Source: Nodosilinea sp. FACHB-141 (GTDB taxonomy: Bacteria; Cyanobacteriota; Cyanobacteriia; Phormidesmidales; Phormidesmidaceae). From it: 64,000 bases of DNA. The DNA is taken from assembly GCF_014696135.1 (NCBI RefSeq), contig NZ_JACJPP010000007.1, positions 186,001 through 250,000 on the forward strand. Direction: 5' to 3'. The notes below the pieces were generated by a model. That model saw only the letters and a program-made list of their open reading frames with translations, was not told the DNA's origin and searched no databases. The position numbers and the translations under genes are program-made. Shown piece by piece: positions 21,278 through 29,550 of this stretch. Each line of letters opens with the position of its first letter. The first letter of the stretch is position 1.

Positions 21278-24200
21278 ATGACGCTACAACCAATGCACAG
21301 CAAAACGCTGAGGCTGAGACTGAACTCGACTGGAAATAGCTTTGGTTTCATGAAACGGCAGCACTGGGCGGGGAGTTTGGCCGCTGTAGCCTGCATGATA
21401 GCCAGCCCGGCTTGGGCTGAGCCAGGGGTACCGCCGGCAGAGGCGCTGGCGGTGCAGCCTTGGGCAGGTATTAGCTTTGAGACCACCGGGGGAAGCCGGG
21501 ACTTCGGCAGCCTGGAGGGGTTTTTGCCCCTAGGGCAAGTGCCGGGACAGCAGATTTTGTTTTTGCAGGGCCGAGCGCGGCTGGATACGGCTGGCTTTTT
21601 GGGCAGCAATCTGATGCTGGGCTACCGCACCCTGGGCGGCGATCGCACCAATCTCACCGGAGGATATGTCGGGCTCGATACCCAGGCCCACGGGGAAGGA
21701 ACGTTTTATCAGGCGGGGGCTGGCCTAGAACATATCAACAATGGGTGGGAGCTGCGGGGCAATGTCTATTGGCCGCTAGGCGATCGCAGCACCGCCACCA
21801 GCTTGCTCAGCACGCCCTTTTTTGAGGGCAATCAGCTACTGCTGCCCACGACTCGGCAAGTTGCTATGGCCGGTGGGGATGTGAGCGTGGGCGGGGCGAT
21901 CGCCACCTTAGGATCCCTGGGCACGCTCAATGCCTATGGGGGACTCTACTACTACAGCCCTCCTGACCAGCCGGGCTTTTTTGGAGGTCGGGCCTGGCTG
22001 GCCGCCAGCCCCACCCCGGGGCTAAATCTGCGGCTGGGTTTGCAGCACGACGACTATTTTGGGACCAATGTGCTGCTGCAAACGGGCTTTAGCTGGGGCG
22101 GGTCTGGTCCCCAAACGGCGGCGACAGGCCTGGCGCTAGGACAACCAATTCAGCGCACCATGGGCATTACTCTGGGTGCCGAAGCCCAGGTTGAGGCGGC
22201 GATCGATCCCGACACCAACCAGGCCTATCGGTTTTACCATGTGCAGCCGGGCTCTAGTGTCGCTGGTGATGGCACCGCCGCCGCCCCGTATGGCGCGATC
22301 GATCCGGCGTTGGGCGTAGCCAGTAGCGGCGATCGCGTTTACGTTCAGCCGGGCAGTTTGGCCAGCGGTTTCACCATTCCCACCGGGGTGCAGGTGTTAT
22401 CTACCGGCCCCATTCAGCCCCTGCGTACCCAGATCGGCACCTTGGCCCTGCCGGGATCGGGCAGCGGTCTGTTGCCCCACGTGCCCGGCACCGTGGTTAT
22501 GGGTCACGACAGTCTGCTGTCGGGGTTTGCTGTGGCCCCAGAACCTGGTCAAGACGGGATTCAGGCTCAGGGGGTTAGGTCAGTAACGATTTTAGACAAC
22601 CAAGTTCTGACGGCTCGCAACGGCATTTTGCTGAATGACGTCAGCGGCAACCTGATCGTTCGCCGCAACCAGATCCAGGATGCTAGCGAAAGCGGGATCT
22701 TGCTCAATATCTCAGGCCAGACGGTAGACACCGCTGACCTCAGCAACAACGACATCCACCGGGCGGCGGACGACGGGCTATTGGTGAGAGCCGCCGCCGG
22801 CAGCCAGATTAACAGTCTGCAACTCAGCCAAAACCGCATTGGCAGCAGCGGCGAAAACGGCATTGCCGTGCTGTCTGACAACAGCCGCGTGGGAACTGTG
22901 GCGATCGCCCAAACCCAGGTCGCCGCTGCCGGAGAAAACGGCGTATTGGTTTTGGCCGGTGCCGGTGGCCAAATTGACAACCTAGCGCTCAGCCAGCTTG
23001 ACCTCGGCACCACTGGCACCAATGGCTTGCTGCTACTGGCGGAGGACGGTGGCACCATCGCCGCTACCACTGTCGCCGACGTCACCCTAGAGCAAAGCCA
23101 AGCCAACGGGGTGCTGCTGCTGGCCGAAAACGGCGCTTATATAGGCCCCGTTGACCTGACCCAACTTCAGCTAGCGGCTACCGCCGAAAACGGAGTGGCC
23201 GTGCTGGCTTTTGGGGGTAGTCGCTTAGGCCCATTCACGCTTAGCCAAAGCAACCTCGGCCAGGTGGGTAGCAACGGGGTGCTGGTGCTGGCCGACACCA
23301 ACAGCGCCCTGGCCGACACTACTCTAGAGACTGTCACGATTCAGTCGGCTGGGGCCAACGGCCTGCTGGTCTTGGGCCAAAATGGCTCTAGCCTAGCGAC
23401 GGTCACGGTCAATGACCTAGCGGTAGACCAGGCCGACAGCAATGGCCTGGTCGTAATTGCCGACAGTGGTTCCCAGATTGCCGCCGCCACGCTGAGCGCC
23501 CCCCAGGTGACCAGCGCTGGCGCAAACGGAGTGCTGGTGCTGGCAAATAATAGTGGCCAGATCGCCACCGTCACCCTCGATGGCGGCGACATTCAGCAGG
23601 CTAGTGAAAATGGAGTGTTAGTGCTGGTCAATAGTGGTAGCCAAATCCAATCCCTAGCGGTTACCAACACGGGGGTAGGCAGCGAGGGCTCAGCCGCTGC
23701 GATCGTAGACAATGGCATTCTCATCCTGTCTGCTCAGGGCAGCCGCATCGGGACTGCTACCGTAGATGGCAACCGATTAACCGGGGTGGGCGCTGCCGGC
23801 ATTGAGCTAATTGCCAGCGGTCAAAGCCAGGTGGGTACAGCTCGCATTAGCGGTAACCAGCTCAATGCGATCGACGGCGACGGCATTTTTGTGCTGACCG
23901 AAGGCCAAAGCCAAATCAGCCAGACCACTATTACCGGCAACCAGCTCCAAACTATTGACCAAGCCGGTATTCAGGTTTTGGCGCTGAACCAGGGGCAGAT
24001 CTCGGCTACGCAAATTAGCGACAACACCCTCGAAACCATAGGCACAGACGGCATCGTCGCCTTTGCTGCAACCGGGGGGCAGCTCGCCACCGTCACCGCT
24101 GATAGCAACCGAGTCAGCCAGGTTGCCCAAGACGGCCTGAGCCTCTTTGCCACGGATGGTGGCACCATCGACCGAGCTGCTCTCGTCAACAACCAAACCC

Positions 24201-24526
24201 AAACAGTTGGCAACAACGGCATCTTTGGCTTCGCCGATGGCACCAGTCGTTTTTCCACGCTCACCGTAGTGGGCAACCAAATTCAGGAGTCGGGCAATCA
24301 CGCCGTAGAACTCGGTAGCGAATCAGCTCAACCCCTCTGTGCCCAAATCACCAACAATCAGAGCATTGCTACTACCAATCTCGACGCCAACCTGTTCGTC
24401 GGGGCAGGCAGTGCACTGCAAGTGGTCGATTTGGCCCAGCTCAATCAGCTGAACAACGGCACCTTTACCCAAATCAACAACGCTGGGGCCACCACCGGTA
24501 GCCAGGGCAATCCTCCCTGCCCCTAG
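21278..24526 (+). CDS. Surface protein: signal peptide, barrel-like N-terminal region, 28-residue beta-helix repeats
   Basis: 1082 residues from ATG 21278. A signal peptide is clear around residues 25-47 (KRQHWAGSLAAVACMIASPAWA), so a start at ATG 21350 is also reasonable. Residues ~50-275 alternate like an outer-membrane beta-barrel and resemble the inverse-autotransporter barrel (GYRTLGGDRTNLTGGYVGLD). A linker with DGTAAAPYGAIDPAL follows, then from about residue 470 some 19 coils of a right-handed beta-helix. Almost every coil is exactly 28 residues and begins (N/D)G(V/L/I)LVLA; one has a 6-residue insertion. The last ~60 residues are a Cys-containing cap. Probably exported to the cell surface; the ligand is unknown. 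Confidence 0.75.
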   Translation: MTLQPMHSKTLRLRLNSTGNSFGFMKRQHWAGSLAAVACMIASPAWAEPGVPPAEALAVQPWAGISFETTGGSRDFGSLEGFLPLGQVPGQQILFLQGRARLDTAGFLGSNLMLGYRTLGGDRTNLTGGYVGLDTQAHGEGTFYQAGAGLEHINNGWELRGNVYWPLGDRSTATSLLSTPFFEGNQLLLPTTRQVAMAGGDVSVGGAIATLGSLGTLNAYGGLYYYSPPDQPGFFGGRAWLAASPTPGLNLRLGLQHDDYFGTNVLLQTGFSWGGSGPQTAATGLALGQPIQRTMGITLGAEAQVEAAIDPDTNQAYRFYHVQPGSSVAGDGTAAAPYGAIDPALGVASSGDRVYVQPGSLASGFTIPTGVQVLSTGPIQPLRTQIGTLALPGSGSGLLPHVPGTVVMGHDSLLSGFAVAPEPGQDGIQAQGVRSVTILDNQVLTARNGILLNDVSGNLIVRRNQIQDASESGILLNISGQTVDTADLSNNDIHRAADDGLLVRAAAGSQINSLQLSQNRIGSSGENGIAVLSDNSRVGTVAIAQTQVAAAGENGVLVLAGAGGQIDNLALSQLDLGTTGTNGLLLLAEDGGTIAATTVADVTLEQSQANGVLLLAENGAYIGPVDLTQLQLAATAENGVAVLAFGGSRLGPFTLSQSNLGQVGSNGVLVLADTNSALADTTLETVTIQSAGANGLLVLGQNGSSLATVTVNDLAVDQADSNGLVVIADSGSQIAAATLSAPQVTSAGANGVLVLANNSGQIATVTLDGGDIQQASENGVLVLVNSGSQIQSLAVTNTGVGSEGSAAAIVDNGILILSAQGSRIGTATVDGNRLTGVGAAGIELIASGQSQVGTARISGNQLNAIDGDGIFVLTEGQSQISQTTITGNQLQTIDQAGIQVLALNQGQISATQISDNTLETIGTDGIVAFAATGGQLATVTADSNRVSQVAQDGLSLFATDGGTIDRAALVNNQTQTVGNNGIFGFADGTSRFSTLTVVGNQIQESGNHAVELGSESAQPLCAQITNNQSIATTNLDANLFVGAGSALQVVDLAQLNQLNNGTFTQINNAGATTGSQGNPPCP

Positions 24527-24680: not shown

Positions 24681-25112
24681 TTATGCCCCTTGGGTTGCAC
24701 TGCGAATGCAGCGGCCGATGTTGGTGTCGATTTTGAGAATGTGGCTGGTCAGCCAACCGGCTAGCTGCTGATAAATTTCGATAGCGACCGCCTCGTTGGC
24801 GTCGCTGGCTTTGTAGCGATCGTGCAGTTGGCCAAAGTTCTCGATGAAGGTGGCGTGGGCCTGCTGGTTGACTTCGGCAATGGGGCACTTGTGCTTGGCG
24901 GCGCAGGCTTCTTCATGCTCAAAGTGCCACTCAGCGTAGAACTTAAGAAAGGCGAAGAGCTTTTTAATGGCGGTGCTGCCTTTGTGGTGGGCGATCGCCA
25001 GCCCTAGATCGTTGACGGCGGCAATCAGCTCTTTGTGGTGGGCGTCAATCATCGGTACGCCGGTGCTGAGGGAGTCGTTCCAAGTGAAGGGCTGGAGGGC
25101 GATGTTTTCCAT
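24681..25112 (-). CDS. Bacteriohemerythrin
   Basis: 143 residues. Diiron-site residues are visible: His26 (IDAHHKEL), His63 and Glu67 (WHFEHEEAC), His86 (AHATF), His124 and Asp129 (TSHILKID). The position of the usual first His of the HxxxH pair appears to be Asn82 (EVNQQAH), and Cys70/Cys76 lie nearby, so the site may differ from classical oxygen carriers. Last gene of the cluster with a globin, roadblock protein and GTPase; oxygen, NO or iron binding would fit that context. Hemerythrin identity is secure, the ligand is not. Confidence 0.88.
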   Translation of the reverse strand: MENIALQPFTWNDSLSTGVPMIDAHHKELIAAVNDLGLAIAHHKGSTAIKKLFAFLKFYAEWHFEHEEACAAKHKCPIAEVNQQAHATFIENFGQLHDRYKASDANEAVAIEIYQQLAGWLTSHILKIDTNIGRCIRSATQGA

Positions 25113-25162
25113 GGTGGGTCAGGGGGTTAAGTAAGGTGAGGTAATTGGGGGGTGACGGAGCA

Positions 25163-25363
25163 TTACTCGTTTACTTCCTGGCGGCTCAGTTCTAAAAGAG
25201 GAAGCAGGGCGAGGAGCCAGAGGGCAAGGGCACTGTCGTAGGACAGGGTGTGATAGAGCCAAAGCCAGAGCGTGACGGCTAGGCCCGGGGGACTGGTCAG
25301 CAGGTCGGCTAGCTTGAGCAGGCCGAGAAAGCCTTGGAGGAGTCGCAGGGCATCGTGGGTCAT
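25163..25363 (-). CDS. Small hydrophobic protein in the globin/GTPase cluster
   Basis: 66 residues starting two bases after the DUF4388 stop codon, so translation is probably coupled. Leu/Trp-rich with one or two membrane helices (about 24-58) and a polar C-terminal LSRQEVNE. No family recognised. Its tight spacing between the DUF4388 and hemerythrin genes is the main support that it is real; it could anchor the cluster's products to the membrane. Confidence 0.6.
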   Translation of the reverse strand: MTHDALRLLQGFLGLLKLADLLTSPPGLAVTLWLWLYHTLSYDSALALWLLALLPLLELSRQEVNE

Positions 25364-25365
25364 GG

Positions 25366-26241
25366 CTACACCTTGCCTTTGAGAAATCCGACGAGGTTTT
25401 GCAAAAAAGACTGGCTGACCGGGGCGGCACCAGCAGTATCGGCAGTGACGCTGGTGGCGAACCCGTGCTCTAGCGGGGCCGAGGCAGCGAGTTCGAAGGC
25501 GGCGGGGGGCGGGGCAGCCACCATTGGCATCTCTTCAGCTAGGCCAGTGACGATGAGGCGAAAGGCAATCTGCTGGGCCTTGGCCACGGGCAAGTTAAGC
25601 TGCTGAGCAATATCCTTGATGGCCATGGTGCCGTTGGTATACTCCCACACCTGCCATTCGTTGGGGTTGAGGCGCAGGCTGGGCTTGCTCTCGACCACGC
25701 TGATCAAAGCTGAGGAGGGGTCGGGCAGTTTTTCGTCGAGGGCGTCCCAGTCTTTGAGCGCGCGCAGCCCAGACAGGGTGACATCGGTGGCAGTAGCGAT
25801 CAGCCCGGTCATTTCGGAGACGGGCAGCGGGGCTTTGGGGTCAAACTGGAACCAGCCGTCGGGGAGGGCAAACAGGGCGCACACCTGACGCATTACCTGA
25901 GTGTAAAACAGCAGTTTGAGCTGTTCGGCAGTGAGCACGCCCTGGTTTTTGAGGCACAGGCCCAGAGGAGTGTGGATTTGGCAGGTTTGGGCCAGCCGGG
26001 AGACGGCGCGATCGCCCATCCAGCCCCGCTGGGCAATTAGTCGCATCAGGCCCTGCTGGTCAAGGCTGTTGCCAGCGGCAACAATTTGCCCCTGGCTCAG
26101 CCAGATGTGGTGGTTGTGGCGAGCAACGGTGGTGGGGTCGCTTAGAGTGCAGATTGTTAACAGGCCGGTTTTATTGCCCTGTTCTACTAGCTGAAACAGT
26201 TCGGGCAAAGAGAAATCGGCGAGGTATCCAGTGACAGTCAT
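25366..26241 (-). CDS. DUF4388 (PatA N-terminal-like) signalling protein
   Basis: 291 residues. It opens with GYLADFSLPELFQLVEQGNKTGLLTI, the standard DUF4388 start, followed by the HHIWLSQGQIVAAGN strand pair. The middle is helical, and residues ~195-240 look like a small winged-helix (WQVWEYTNGTMAIKDIAQQL). The tail is Ala/Pro-rich. DUF4388 occurs in PatA-type response regulators and with MglA/roadblock systems. Here it follows a GTPase and a roadblock gene on the same strand, so it is plausibly the output or scaffold. Confidence 0.82.
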   Translation of the reverse strand: MTVTGYLADFSLPELFQLVEQGNKTGLLTICTLSDPTTVARHNHHIWLSQGQIVAAGNSLDQQGLMRLIAQRGWMGDRAVSRLAQTCQIHTPLGLCLKNQGVLTAEQLKLLFYTQVMRQVCALFALPDGWFQFDPKAPLPVSEMTGLIATATDVTLSGLRALKDWDALDEKLPDPSSALISVVESKPSLRLNPNEWQVWEYTNGTMAIKDIAQQLNLPVAKAQQIAFRLIVTGLAEEMPMVAAPPPAAFELAASAPLEHGFATSVTADTAGAAPVSQSFLQNLVGFLKGKV

Positions 26242-26416
26242 GGGTGTTATCCCTTTCTGCGGGCGAGTGAGTGGGTTAGACGTAGGAAGTGGGGAAGTAA
26301 AAGGGTGGGGATGGGGTTGGGCCTGGGGAGTTGACGGTTTGTACCGCTAGCTTCAACACCGCATCCGTAAATCCCGCATGTTTAACTGAATTTCAATGGC
26401 GTTGCATTGGCAGGCT

Positions 26417-26965
26417 CTAGGTCGTAGGGGCTAAGCTGCCCGCCCAGGTAAACTGCACCAGGGAAATCACTGCCTGGGCCACCGATGCAGTTTCGTTGGC
26501 GTTGACGGCAACTATAGGCGGACGGCGAGCGGGGTCGGGGTAGCCAAGGGCCAGGGCAATGTTGGCGGCATCCCAGGCACCGGAACAGTCGGTGTGGGTA
26601 AGACCGATGATCATGGGTGCGGGCGATCGCTGTTTCATGAAGGTCATGATGCGGCGAGCCTCTCGAAACTCATGGGGTCGATGGGCCGCTACTAGCAAAA
26701 TGTAGGCGTGGGCCTTTTGAATCAGAATGTCCCACATGAAGTCGAAGCGCGACTGGCCAGGGGTGCCGTAGAGATGTAGGGCCATGTCGGGGCCAAACTG
26801 GAGGCGACCAAAGTCGAAGGCAACGGTGGTGCGCTTTTTAATCAGCAGGGTGTCGTCGGTGGCGCGGCGATCGGTGTCTACCACCTCAATTTCGCTGACG
26901 GATCGAATGAAGGTGGACTTGCCGGCCCCCACAGGGCCGGTGACCACTAAACGCATGATTTCCAT
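26417..26965 (-). CDS. Small Ras/MglA-like GTPase
   Basis: 182 residues from ATG 26965 (MEIMRLVVTG); a longer start at 27019 runs into intergenic sequence. P-loop GPVGAGKST at 10-18, switch II LYGTPGQSRFDFMW, and GLTHTD in the place of the NKxD base-specificity motif. This is the bacterial small-GTPase class usually paired with roadblock/LC7 proteins. It lies between the roadblock gene and the DUF4388 gene, supporting a GTPase/regulator pair as in MglA/MglB. Nucleotide preference is uncertain because the NKxD motif is altered. Confidence 0.85.
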   Translation of the reverse strand: MEIMRLVVTGPVGAGKSTFIRSVSEIEVVDTDRRATDDTLLIKKRTTVAFDFGRLQFGPDMALHLYGTPGQSRFDFMWDILIQKAHAYILLVAAHRPHEFREARRIMTFMKQRSPAPMIIGLTHTDCSGAWDAANIALALGYPDPARRPPIVAVNANETASVAQAVISLVQFTWAGSLAPTT

Positions 26966-27062
26966 GGGTGGGCGGAGGCAATGAAGAATAAGGTGAAACG
27001 TCGTGGGGGCACACCACAAATACGAGCGTTCAGAGCAAATCTGGGGACTAGTAATGGTGAAA

Positions 27063-27094
27063 GATCCCCCCTAAACCCCCTTTTTGAAGGGGGT
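27063..27094. repeat. Dispersed CCCCC-T-rich hairpin between roadblock and GTPase genes
   Basis: ACCCCCTT (27075-27082) pairs with AAGGGGGT (27087-27094), preceded by GATCCCCCCTAA. This type of repeat is common between cyanobacterial genes. Here it splits the roadblock and GTPase genes and might alter their relative expression. Confidence 0.6.
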
Positions 27095-27114
27095 GTGCTC
27101 TCCGCCATGGGGCG

Positions 27115-27486
27115 CTACATCAAAACGGCTTTCAGATCGGCTAGGGTGCGCTTGATTTCGAGCATCAGCAGGCCTTGCTTGGCCGCTTTGTCGGCCAGCA
27201 CCAGGAACACGGCGTCTTCGCCGCAGCTGGTGAGAATGCCGTAGCCTTTGTCGCCCTCGACAAAAATGCGATCGATGCCGCCGCGGGCTAGCTCGCTGCC
27301 AATGCGATCGCCCAGGGACAGCATGGCAGCCGACATAGCTGAAACCCGTTCTTCATCCATGCCGCCAGGTAGGCTGGCCGCCAAAGGCAGACCGTCGGGG
27401 GTGACCACTGCTGCCCCTTGAATGTCGGTGGTAGAGGTGACAAAGCTTTGCAAAATGTTGGTGAGTTTTTCGGTGCTAATCGCCAT
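27115..27486 (-). CDS. Roadblock/LC7 domain protein
   Basis: 123 residues covering one roadblock domain and nothing else: TDIQGAAVVTPDGLPLAASLPGG, then AAMLSLGDRIGSEL and YGILTSCGEDAVFLVLADKAA. Roadblock proteins dimerise and act on partner small GTPases as activating or localising factors (MglB, Ragulator). The partner here is almost certainly the GTPase gene downstream. ATG 27486, 77 bases after the protoglobin stop. Confidence 0.9.
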   Translation of the reverse strand: MAISTEKLTNILQSFVTSTTDIQGAAVVTPDGLPLAASLPGGMDEERVSAMSAAMLSLGDRIGSELARGGIDRIFVEGDKGYGILTSCGEDAVFLVLADKAAKQGLLMLEIKRTLADLKAVLM

Positions 27487-27563
27487 GGTTAGTTCTCTCT
27501 TTGGTTAAGGAAAATGAGGGTAATAAAGCTGAAGTAAAATCAACAGAAAAGGCGTGCGGGGCG

Positions 27564-28118
27564 CTACATTGCCGTGGCACCGGTTTTGACCAGCCGTCTG
27601 AAGAGACCCTCAGACCAGCCTGTTTCTTGCAGCACCGCTGCCGAAGAAACTTCGATATAGGCTTGCTCAATAAAGGCCAGATCGACCATGCAAATTTTGG
27701 CTAGGGCATCGCGCAGCTGGTCGTTTTTGCCGTCGGTCTGGGCGCGCTTGCCAGCCTCATGTACAACCACAGCCATGGCAGGCACCACGTGCTGGGGGCC
27801 GATGCCGATACGCACGTGAATTAGACCAATGCGCCAGCGCCGCTCAGCGTAGGCATCACCCCAGTTATCCATACCGGTGAACATCTCATGGAACCAGTCC
27901 ACAAAGGTTTCGCGCAGCCGGTGAATTCGGCCCTCAGACTCGTTGAGAATGGCGCTCATCTCGGCGTCGCGACCTAGATATTCATAGAAGTAGTCGGCCA
28001 TTTCTGGGGCGATTTCTAAACCCCAATCAGCTGTGGATTGAAGTACTTTACGGTCGTCGGCAGTGAGACCAATGCGCGACACCATCTTAGACATAAACTC
28101 ATTGGGCTCAAGGCTCAT
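27564..28118 (-). CDS. Protoglobin / globin-sensor protein
   Basis: 184 residues. All-helical, with the proximal haem ligand His101 in RWRIGLIHVRIGIGP, the signature of the globin-coupled-sensor/protoglobin family. The Phe/Trp-rich stretch TFVDWFHEMFTGMDNWG lies on the distal side. There is no transducer domain, so it is a stand-alone sensor that would signal to a separate protein. It is first in a cluster with roadblock, GTPase, DUF4388 and hemerythrin genes. Haem binding is a strong expectation; the gas sensed is unknown. Confidence 0.87.
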   Translation of the reverse strand: MSLEPNEFMSKMVSRIGLTADDRKVLQSTADWGLEIAPEMADYFYEYLGRDAEMSAILNESEGRIHRLRETFVDWFHEMFTGMDNWGDAYAERRWRIGLIHVRIGIGPQHVVPAMAVVVHEAGKRAQTDGKNDQLRDALAKICMVDLAFIEQAYIEVSSAAVLQETGWSEGLFRRLVKTGATAM

Positions 28119-28233
28119 TCAGCGAATCCTTAAAGTAGGGCTTTGTTTCAACATCCTTGTTTTATCGCTTTAGCCTTAGGAGTCAACATGGCGTGAATAC
28201 CTAAGATTTTGAAACTTAGAGCTTTTGTAGAGA

Positions 28234-28375
28234 GTTCAAAACATAACCGTTTGTTTGAACTTTAATCACAACTTTGGTGGGTATTTTTTGAGATGGGGAA
28301 CACCCTTATTGCTTAAAAGCGGTGTCAGCAATCCACCCACATAAATAAAGTGTTGTAACTGACTTAAACAACACT
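28234..28375. promoter_or_regulatory. Two inverted repeats upstream of the protoglobin cluster
   Basis: GTTCAAA (28234-28240) with TTTGAAC (28254-28260), 13-base spacer, and AGTGTTGT (28349-28356) with ACAACACT (28368-28375), 11-base spacer. They lie 116 and 231 bases upstream of the protoglobin ATG in a 720-base AT-rich gap (28119-28839) that holds no other gene I can see. They look like dimeric-regulator operators; no regulator is assigned. Confidence 0.35.
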
Positions 28376-28839
28376 GGGACTGTTAATATCAGTAAAGCAA
28401 TGCTAAAGCTAATGTTTAAGCGATCGCACTTTAGGAACCCCTAAATTGTTTATTTCAGGATCGTGCAACTGGATTTTGTACTTATAGATGTATTTATAGA
28501 TAAAGATTGCTTTTTCTCAGAAAACTCTGATTTGAACTACGCGCTCTTCCTTGGTTAGCGATCTCTAAACCGGGACCATTTGTCAACAGCATTAAGCTAT
28601 GTAAAGAAAAGGCTTGGTCTGCTCAACCTCAAACTGCGTAAGATTGCGGAAATTGGTGATACATTTCTTCAAATAGCATGGCGTAGGCGGGCGGTTGAGT
28701 CCTGAGCTGCTGTCAGAAGGCTATATAGTGAGATGCGATCGCAGCACCCTAGCTCAGATGGGCGACCAGTTGCCCCTTGCTATCGGCCGCAGCAATCGCT
28801 AGCCCAACCAATTTTTGGCACCTAGAGGCAGTTAGACCC

Positions 28840-29550
28840 ATGGCCCGACGACCAACGGCAGATGACGGGGTAGATCTAGCCCCCTATATCGACCACTCTT
28901 TGCTTAGCCCTACGGCTACGGCTGAGCAGGTGGCCCAATGGTGTGCTGAGGGCGATCGCTATGGGTTTGCCTCGGTTTGCATTGCCCCCTGCCATGTGCC
29001 TCAGGCCGTGGAGCTTCTGCACAATACTAAGGTGAAGGTCTGTACGGTAATTGGCTTTCCCACCGGGGCAACGACCTCAGGCACTAAGCTTTACGAGGCT
29101 CAGGAAGCGGCTGAGCGGGGAGCCGACGAGCTTGATGTTGTAATTAACTTAGGGTGGCTCAAAACGGGCAATACCGATGCCATTCACCGAGAAATTGCCA
29201 CTATTTGTGAAGAGACCGGTCTGCTGGTCAAAGCCATTCTCGAAACCGCCGTGCTCACCCCGCCAGAAATCGCTCTGGCCGCCGAAGTTTGCATGGATGC
29301 TGGGGTTTCATTCTTAAAGACCAGCACCGGCTGGCAGGGGGGTGCTACCGTTGAAGTTGTGCGCCAGCTGTGGGCATTGACCCAGGGCCAAGTGGGTATT
29401 AAAGCCTCTGGCGGCATTGGCACGGCCGCCCAAGCGGTGGCCCTGGTGCAGGTAGGGGCAACCCGCCTGGGCACCTCGCGCGGGGTCGATCTAATGCGGC
29501 AGCAGAAGGAAGAGCCCGCTGGTGAGGGTGAGGGCGCTGATCGCCCTTAG
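28840..29550 (+). CDS. deoC: Deoxyribose-phosphate aldolase
   Basis: 236 residues from ATG 28840 (MARRPTADD); the open frame extends to a TTG at 28777 but the family starts near here. TIM-barrel with [11 protein letters not shown] at the start, [16 protein letters not shown], the [11 protein letters not shown] strand and the Schiff-base Lys in [10 protein letters not shown]. It cleaves 2-deoxyribose-5-phosphate to glyceraldehyde-3-phosphate and acetaldehyde in nucleoside salvage. The C-terminal ~15 residues are Glu/Gly-rich and unstructured. A MITE-like element lies just downstream. Confidence 0.93.

Follow-up and report, generated by a model that had tools for sequence, protein, structure and literature searches.

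A conserved globin, roadblock and GTPase gene cluster of cyanobacteria with exchangeable input proteins, probably an oxygen- or redox-controlled switch

The 64,000-nucleotide stretch of the Nodosilinea sp. FACHB-141 genome analyzed here (contig NZ_JACJPP010000007.1, positions 186,001 to 250,000; hereafter the window) contains a minus-strand run of six genes, at window positions 24681-28118, for a sensor globin, a roadblock/LC7 protein, an MglA-type small GTPase, a DUF4388 (PATAN) protein, a 66-residue hydrophobic protein and a bacteriohemerythrin. Across the class Cyanobacteriia, the globin, roadblock and GTPase genes form a conserved core, usually accompanied by DUF4388, and the input protein is exchanged between modules: a V4R-fold protein replaces or joins the globin, and some gene sets have only the hemerythrin. 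This exchange is directly observed, as are the identities, order and strand of the genes and the conservation of heme-pocket, nucleotide-binding and iron-ligand residues. The cluster is probably an oxygen- or redox-controlled switch and, on balance, we think that the six genes make up one signaling module, in which the globin and hemerythrin would feed the roadblock-GTPase pair and, through it, the PATAN protein, placing motility or piliation under oxygen or redox control.

Our searches covered 388 Cyanobacteriia genomes, and all counts are uncorrected for shared ancestry. GTPase matches occurred in 131 of these genomes and globin matches in 84, representing 34 of 159 genera. The 150 GTPase matches listed come from 123 of the 131 positive genomes, and neighbor counts based on them are lower bounds; each is a gene copy rather than a module, some loci having two copies. 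A listed GTPase is found no more than 4 kb from at least 80 of the 95 globin matches; the two genes share a strand in all 80 cases, and the globin is 5' of the GTPase in 71 and 3' in 9. The GTPase is present in 80 of the 84 globin-bearing genomes, as compared to 51 of the 304 genomes with no globin match (Fisher p about 3e-42); the four globin-positive genomes with no GTPase match are G236, G318, G325 and G335. Chance adjacency was considered and ruled out by the same-strand proximity of globin, hemerythrin and GTPase, along with the recurrence of the core genes across genomes.

A second sample consisted of named globin loci, the best 80 of 109 relatives, several of them on short contigs; it overlaps with the 388-genome set and the two are not independent. 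A roadblock gene was present in 76 of these loci, the GTPase in 69, DUF4388 in 48 and all four core genes in 46. A set of 50 globin loci, the window's own included, which overlaps with the named loci, was hand-picked from the 95 matches, nearly all with a known nearby GTPase (only L082, L113 and L114 were chosen with no listed GTPase nearby), and 46 of these have all four genes, the exceptions being L082, L092, L113 and L114. The original prediction had read the six genes as a single system of regular neighbors. That holds for the core, the hemerythrin and the 66-residue protein, and the complete six-gene set was seen only in the window's genus and one other lineage (L079/L157). Within the window's genus the module is accessory, a GTPase match being present in 16 of 26 genomes. 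The eleven named relatives whose globins are 86-99% identical to that of the window are labeled Nodosilinea, Leptolyngbya, Shackletoniella, Phormidium, Tildeniella or filamentous cyanobacterium.

A third input is a family of about 155 residues encoded near the roadblock gene in 37 of the best 80 of 109 named loci and in 21 of 60 fetched loci. Sequence searches against Pfam, NCBIfam and the PDB gave no identification for this family; its predicted fold alone did (mean predicted local distance difference test score, pLDDT, 86.2). The model matched the V4R aromatic-sensor domains of MopR, PoxR and DmpR with Z scores of 15.7 to 16.9, a vinyl-4-reductase family protein at 13.8, Bet3/TRAPPC3 at up to 13.8, cellulose-synthase subunit D at 13.6 and H-NOX at about 8. 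Since cellulose-synthase subunit D scores level with Bet3, the likeness to TRAPP is one of fold only. The V4R-fold family is present in 84 of the 388 genomes, and at least 59 of its 103 rows have a listed GTPase at a distance of up to 4 kb. When the 150 listed GTPase copies were sorted by the inputs within 4 kb, 39 had the globin only, 22 globin and hemerythrin, 22 globin and V4R, 34 V4R only, 11 hemerythrin only and 22 none, so that 128 copies have at least one of the three; copies at contig ends, which cannot show gene absence, were kept in these classes. Among the matches listed, every neighboring input is on the same strand as its GTPase (globin 83/83, V4R 56/56, hemerythrin 33/33). We tentatively propose a family of ligand-gated GTPases, in which interchangeable globin, V4R/TRAPP-fold and hemerythrin proteins might exert direct control over an MglA-type GTPase bound to the roadblock protein and, through it, over the PATAN output. 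Hemerythrin and V4R were never found beside the same listed GTPase copy, and the globin pairs with either. The host genome, which has one roadblock match, carries one V4R/Bet3-fold homolog (G000:C6:121296-121751, L257), unlinked to the cluster and flanked by open reading frames (ORFs) that by eye resemble a histidine kinase and a Ser/Thr kinase.

The bacteriohemerythrin search gave 136 rows, 51 of them close (E up to 1.2e-41) and 85 weaker. At least 31 of the 51 close hemerythrins have a listed GTPase no further than 4 kb away, 31/31 on the same strand, with 30 of the hemerythrins downstream and one upstream. This association comprises at least 13 of the 15 hemerythrins from the window's genus and at least 18 of the 36 from outside it, in seven genera, and applies to at least 4 of the 85 weaker rows. 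The 11 listed GTPase copies that have a hemerythrin but no globin within 4 kb include five loci flanked by 3 kb or more in each direction (L218, L219, L220, L223 and L224) and one with such a margin on the globin side only (L222); L127, L215, L216, L217 and L221 end at a contig edge. In L216 and L217 two tandem hemerythrins follow 3' of roadblock, GTPase and DUF4388, and the prospective globin side is the contig end. Based on the DcrH pattern, whose diiron ligand roles we assume to apply here, the window's protein keeps six of seven iron ligands (H26, H63, E67, H86, H124 and D129). Asn82 replaces the remaining His in 36/36 aligned rows, among them the copy in the window and four or more loci that are duplicates. 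We dropped the idea that this Asn is a mark of the module, as it is also found in 18 of 20 hemerythrins away from a GTPase. A hemerythrin relative, L247, has lost several iron-ligand residues.

All six genes proposed by the original prediction were found as ORFs at the coordinates in Table 1, including the 66-residue protein and its start, and the family searches agree with the types assigned, the 66-residue ORF having no Pfam family. The transcription order is globin, roadblock, GTPase, DUF4388, 66-residue protein and hemerythrin, with gaps of 77, 149, 175, 2 and 50 bases. Both flanking ORFs (21278-24526 and 28777-29550) are on the plus strand and the six-gene run is, therefore, isolated. The 28777-29550 ORF is a DeoC-like gene, while the other, convergent with the cluster, encodes 1082 residues with many repeats that look similar by eye. 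The 5.9-Mb genome of this cyanobacterium has four DUF4388 matches, and its single roadblock match and single related GTPase match favor one module.

Table 1. Coordinates and family matches of the cluster genes and of the leader upstream of the globin gene (window positions).
Feature	Position	Strand	Details
Globin	27564-28118	-	184 residues; Pfam Protoglobin PF11563, 72.8 bits (cut-off 25)
Roadblock/LC7 protein, single-domain, MglB-like	27115-27486	-	123 residues; PF03259 Robl_LC7, 64.1 bits
MglA-type small GTPase	26417-26965	-	182 residues; best match PF03029 ATP_bind_1, 50.2 bits
DUF4388 (PATAN) protein	25366-26241	-	291 residues; PF14332 over cut-off, 98 bits
66-residue hydrophobic protein	25163-25363	-	starts 2 bases after the DUF4388 stop; no Pfam match
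Bacteriohemerythrin	24681-25112	-	143 residues; Pfam, 43 bits; NCBIfam NF033749, 94.7 bits (cut-off 84)
Leader upstream of globin gene	28119-28538	-	blocks kept within genus; presumed regulatory region of the cluster

The globin matched PDB 8H17 (Tlr1989 of Thermosynechococcus elongatus BP-1) in profile searches with an E value of 3.9e-97. Its predicted model (mean pLDDT 91.2) compares to 8H17 with a Z score of 25.1 and a root-mean-square deviation of 1.3 over 157 residues, and to HemAT with a Z score of 18.2. By sequence and by predicted structure, the protein belongs to the same subfamily as Tlr1989, and the nearest structural neighbors of the model are heme gas sensors. Residues Y45, T71 and H101 align with Y70, T95 and H123 of HemAT, which we take to be its distal pocket (Tyr70 and Thr95) and proximal heme ligand (H123), and all three are invariant in 33/33 aligned globins; the earlier designation of His101 is thereby confirmed. 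The invariant pocket and the six iron ligands kept by the hemerythrin make a response to oxygen, nitric oxide (NO) or redox state, as suggested in the original prediction, plausible. The globin is stand-alone and, unlike globin-coupled sensors proper, has no covalently attached output domain. It shares with HemAT, AfGcHK and Tlr1989 the sensor-globin fold and the aligned Tyr, Thr and proximal His, and differs from HemAT and AfGcHK in having a short conserved tail and a presumed output in separate adjacent genes. This tail (residues 157-184) extends beyond the globin core, and G167, W168, L172, F173 and R175 are invariant in the 33 aligned globins; it is our candidate for contact with the roadblock protein or the GTPase. 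In another locus, L096, a globin 100% identical to the 8H17 chain is followed by roadblock, GTPase, DUF4388 and hemerythrin genes, i.e., five of the six genes, in order. Because of this identity to Tlr1989, the L096 genome is most likely Thermosynechococcus BP-1 or a near relative. Searches under the names Tlr1989 and 8H17 found no paper on that structure.

The roadblock protein has an Asp-Gly pair (PDG), which a regular expression recovered in 145 of 178 homologous segments, with 33 unmatched. The GTPase is a single domain of fewer than 240 residues, marginally above the cut-off for PF00071 Ras (21.9 versus 21.6 bits), with a P-loop (GPVGAGKS) that fits GxxxxGK[ST]. Its G3 motif is GTPGQ, as it is in 156 of 158 GTPase segments (some genomes contributing twice), and its G2 has Thr-Thr. 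According to the accessible text of PMC4316618, MglA groups 2-5 have a GTPGQ G3 motif and carry Thr rather than Arg in G2, and groups 1, 4 and 5 have [NT]KxD in G4. Judged by these two motifs, the GTPase is placed with groups 2-5. The altered NKxD motif remarked on in the original prediction is THTD, and the substitution of His for Lys (THxD or SHxD) recurs in 19/19 aligned rows, the window's included, a statement that rests on this 19-row alignment. The absence of [NT]KxD excludes a plain group 5 assignment and not the MglA family, as groups 2 and 3 are also described as often having no G4 Lys (PMC4316618, accessible text). As in the MglA family, the gene is within four genes of a roadblock homolog. 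Assignment to the Rup family was rejected, as no Rup member is coupled to MglB in the accessible text of PMC4316618 and this GTPase gene is beside a roadblock gene. In a set of Symploca-type and related loci (L154, L160, L164, L165, L168, L180, L230 and L231), roadblock genes and two distinct GTPase genes come after the globin and DUF4388 was not detected, a hint of paired GTPases.

The DUF4388 protein ends, after a variable linker, in a conserved motif of the SFLQNLVGFLK type (25-row alignment). No receiver domain and no other Pfam match was detected in it at E values up to 0.01, and its profile found no solved structure at E values up to 0.1. The 66-residue protein is under protein-level selection, as an excess of third-codon-position changes was found in 9/9 within-genus comparisons. 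A profile built from ten seed sequences, scanned against six-frame ORFs of at least 40 residues in 160 loci chosen around the globin or GTPase, gave 28 rows (E up to 0.01), each in a locus with a same-strand DUF4388, and 26 of the 28 are at -165 to +223 bases of the DUF4388 end. In L118 and L136 the stop-to-stop frame starts further upstream, but the match itself is just after DUF4388. Relatives that are neither seeds nor from the window's genus were found in L075, L081/L206, L089, L127 and L159, and we dropped the notion that the protein is restricted to the genus, since relatives are directly 3' of DUF4388 in several other genera.

The leader that precedes the globin gene has conserved blocks across 11 aligned members of the genus, the window's own included. 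It matched no Rfam family and no sigma-70-like site or promoter was found in it; the promoter and terminator scan returned fewer sites than the mean of its shuffled sequences. A conserved micro-ORF in the leader was considered and dropped, as its frame and stop are not preserved in all relatives (alignment by eye). In the roadblock-GTPase spacer there is an inverted repeat, CCCCCTT..AAAGGGGG (27075-27094), which occurs at one place in the window.

If the cluster is one module, a dimeric heme globin, joined in this lineage by the hemerythrin, would report the oxygen (or NO or redox) state, and its ligand state would alter how the roadblock dimer handles the MglA-type GTPase, with the roadblock protein as GTPase-activating protein, guanine-nucleotide exchange factor or scaffold. 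The GTP-bound GTPase would then engage the PATAN protein, which would act at the membrane, via its conserved C-terminal helix and the 66-residue protein, probably on the type IV pilus motor, with oxygen- or redox-dependent motility or piliation as the outcome. In this scheme we infer the ligand, the dimer state, the physical contacts, the direction of control and the pilus output. The role in motility is suggested by analogy with PATAN regulators of Synechocystis that bind the pilus motor PilB (PMC10519157 and PMC9090330, accessible text). PATAN genes are also occasionally near group 1 and group 5 MglA genes (PMC4316618, accessible text).

Several findings weigh against this scheme. Neither a roadblock nor a GTPase was found in loci L082 and L114, 15 of the 95 globin matches have no GTPase within 4 kb among the matches listed, and for 22 of the 150 listed GTPase copies no globin, V4R-fold protein or hemerythrin is that near. 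The order of the genes varies: in 9 of 80 cases the globin comes 3' of the GTPase. DUF4388 was undetected in 32 of the best 80 of 109 named globin loci and, therefore, PATAN may not be an obligatory output. The module is patchy even in the window's genus, where 10 of 26 genomes have no GTPase match, several of them 96-100% complete. In the cluster itself, the 149-base roadblock-GTPase and 175-base GTPase-DUF4388 gaps could house separate promoters, and the inverted repeat is within one of these spacers. Finally, the G4 Lys is His, so that guanine specificity is not certain, and the lost His ligand, judged from the alignment, may have altered oxygen binding by the hemerythrin.

The strongest alternative, although in our view an unlikely one, retains a single system under globin and GTPase control and assigns PATAN to some other membrane or polarity process, such as thylakoid or envelope organization, biofilm matrix or cell differentiation. 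It draws support from the DUF4388 protein having no receiver-domain match, unlike the PATAN-REC proteins that bind PilB, and from the lack of any pilus gene among the six genes and the five flanking ORFs scanned; PATAN is, moreover, named after PatA of heterocyst formation (PMC4316618, accessible text). However, type IV pili feature in the best-studied outputs of both PATAN and MglA.

It is less probable still that the globin and hemerythrin are housekeeping partners for NO or oxygen detoxification or for heme and iron buffering, co-expressed at low oxygen and not inputs at all. Detoxification and oxygen-buffering roles have been proposed for protoglobins and hemerythrins, and 20 of the 51 close hemerythrins are away from a GTPase among the matches listed. 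On the other hand, partners of this kind do not readily account for the same-strand proximity to the GTPase of at least 80 of the 95 globin matches, for the modules in which a V4R ligand-binding fold or hemerythrin is present and the globin undetected, or for the HemAT-like sensor pocket and extra conserved C-terminal tail of the globin.

Sensing of a linear tetrapyrrole (bilin) or of light by the globin, instead of a gas, is very improbable: although cyanobacterial bilin-binding globins (BBAGs) occur in gene clusters with V4R proteins (PMC10151467, accessible text), and a V4R-fold protein also joins the globin module in other loci, the proximal His and the residues of the HemAT pocket do not vary, the closest structures are heme gas sensors, and the sole Cys is in CMVD rather than the bilin motif CXRD. 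The last point is not decisive, since CXRD occurs in BBAG-1, BBAG-3 and many phycobiliproteins and BBAG-2 is described as having none (PMC10151467, accessible text).

Bacterial small-GTPase switches are known mainly from Myxococcus polarity and the Streptomyces conservons, where the inputs are a chemosensory system or a histidine kinase. With the MglA/MglB switch of Myxococcus and Thermus (MglA groups 2-5), the window's cluster has in common the roadblock-GTPase gene pair, the P-loop, GTPGQ and the G2 Thr, whereas here G4 has His for Lys and the globin, hemerythrin and PATAN genes are in the cluster. As in the conservons (CvnA-D), an input protein, a roadblock protein, a further protein and a GTPase are encoded together, and group 2 GTPases likewise have no G4 Lys (PMC4316618, accessible text). 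However, globin and hemerythrin stand in place of the histidine kinase and DUF4388 in place of CvnC, no match to the CvnA histidine kinase or CvnC being found among the six genes in Pfam and NCBIfam. The phototaxis regulators PixE, PixG and TaxP2 share the PATAN/DUF4388 domain, but the protein here has no receiver match and is presumably controlled by the GTPase and not by phosphorylation. Sister modules join a Bet3/V4R-fold protein to a roadblock protein and a small GTPase, as the TRAPP core joins Bet3-fold, longin and Rab; these are bacterial proteins, however, the window's cluster has no V4R protein, and the likeness is one of fold and gene content.

Roadblock-GTPase-PATAN neighborhoods are already known. 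What appears to be new is their conserved tie to a sensor globin that can be swapped for a V4R-fold protein or hemerythrin: we found no description of a globin-roadblock-GTPase cluster, or of such an exchange, in the open-access literature, which leaves most subscription journals outside. The words globin and hemerythrin are absent from the main text of PMC4316618, and "gtpase" does not occur in the indexed text of a review from 2025 on the type IV pili of cyanobacteria (PMC12288463).

In these modules the conserved neighbors of the GTPase belong to oxygen-binding families, and cyanobacteria produce oxygen in the light and use it up in the dark. Were the link direct, this would be a gas-controlled small GTPase and, if interchangeable inputs do control the switch, a bacterial counterpart of the TRAPP-like arrangement of input, roadblock and GTPase. 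The structurally solved globin Tlr1989 would gain a context, and oxygen control of cyanobacterial movement would become testable via the L096-type five-gene set, as Thermosynechococcus can be transformed and uses type IV pili to move (PMC9090330, accessible text). The exchange between globin and TRAPP-fold protein also bears on the origin of the ligand-binding partners of roadblock-GTPase regulators.

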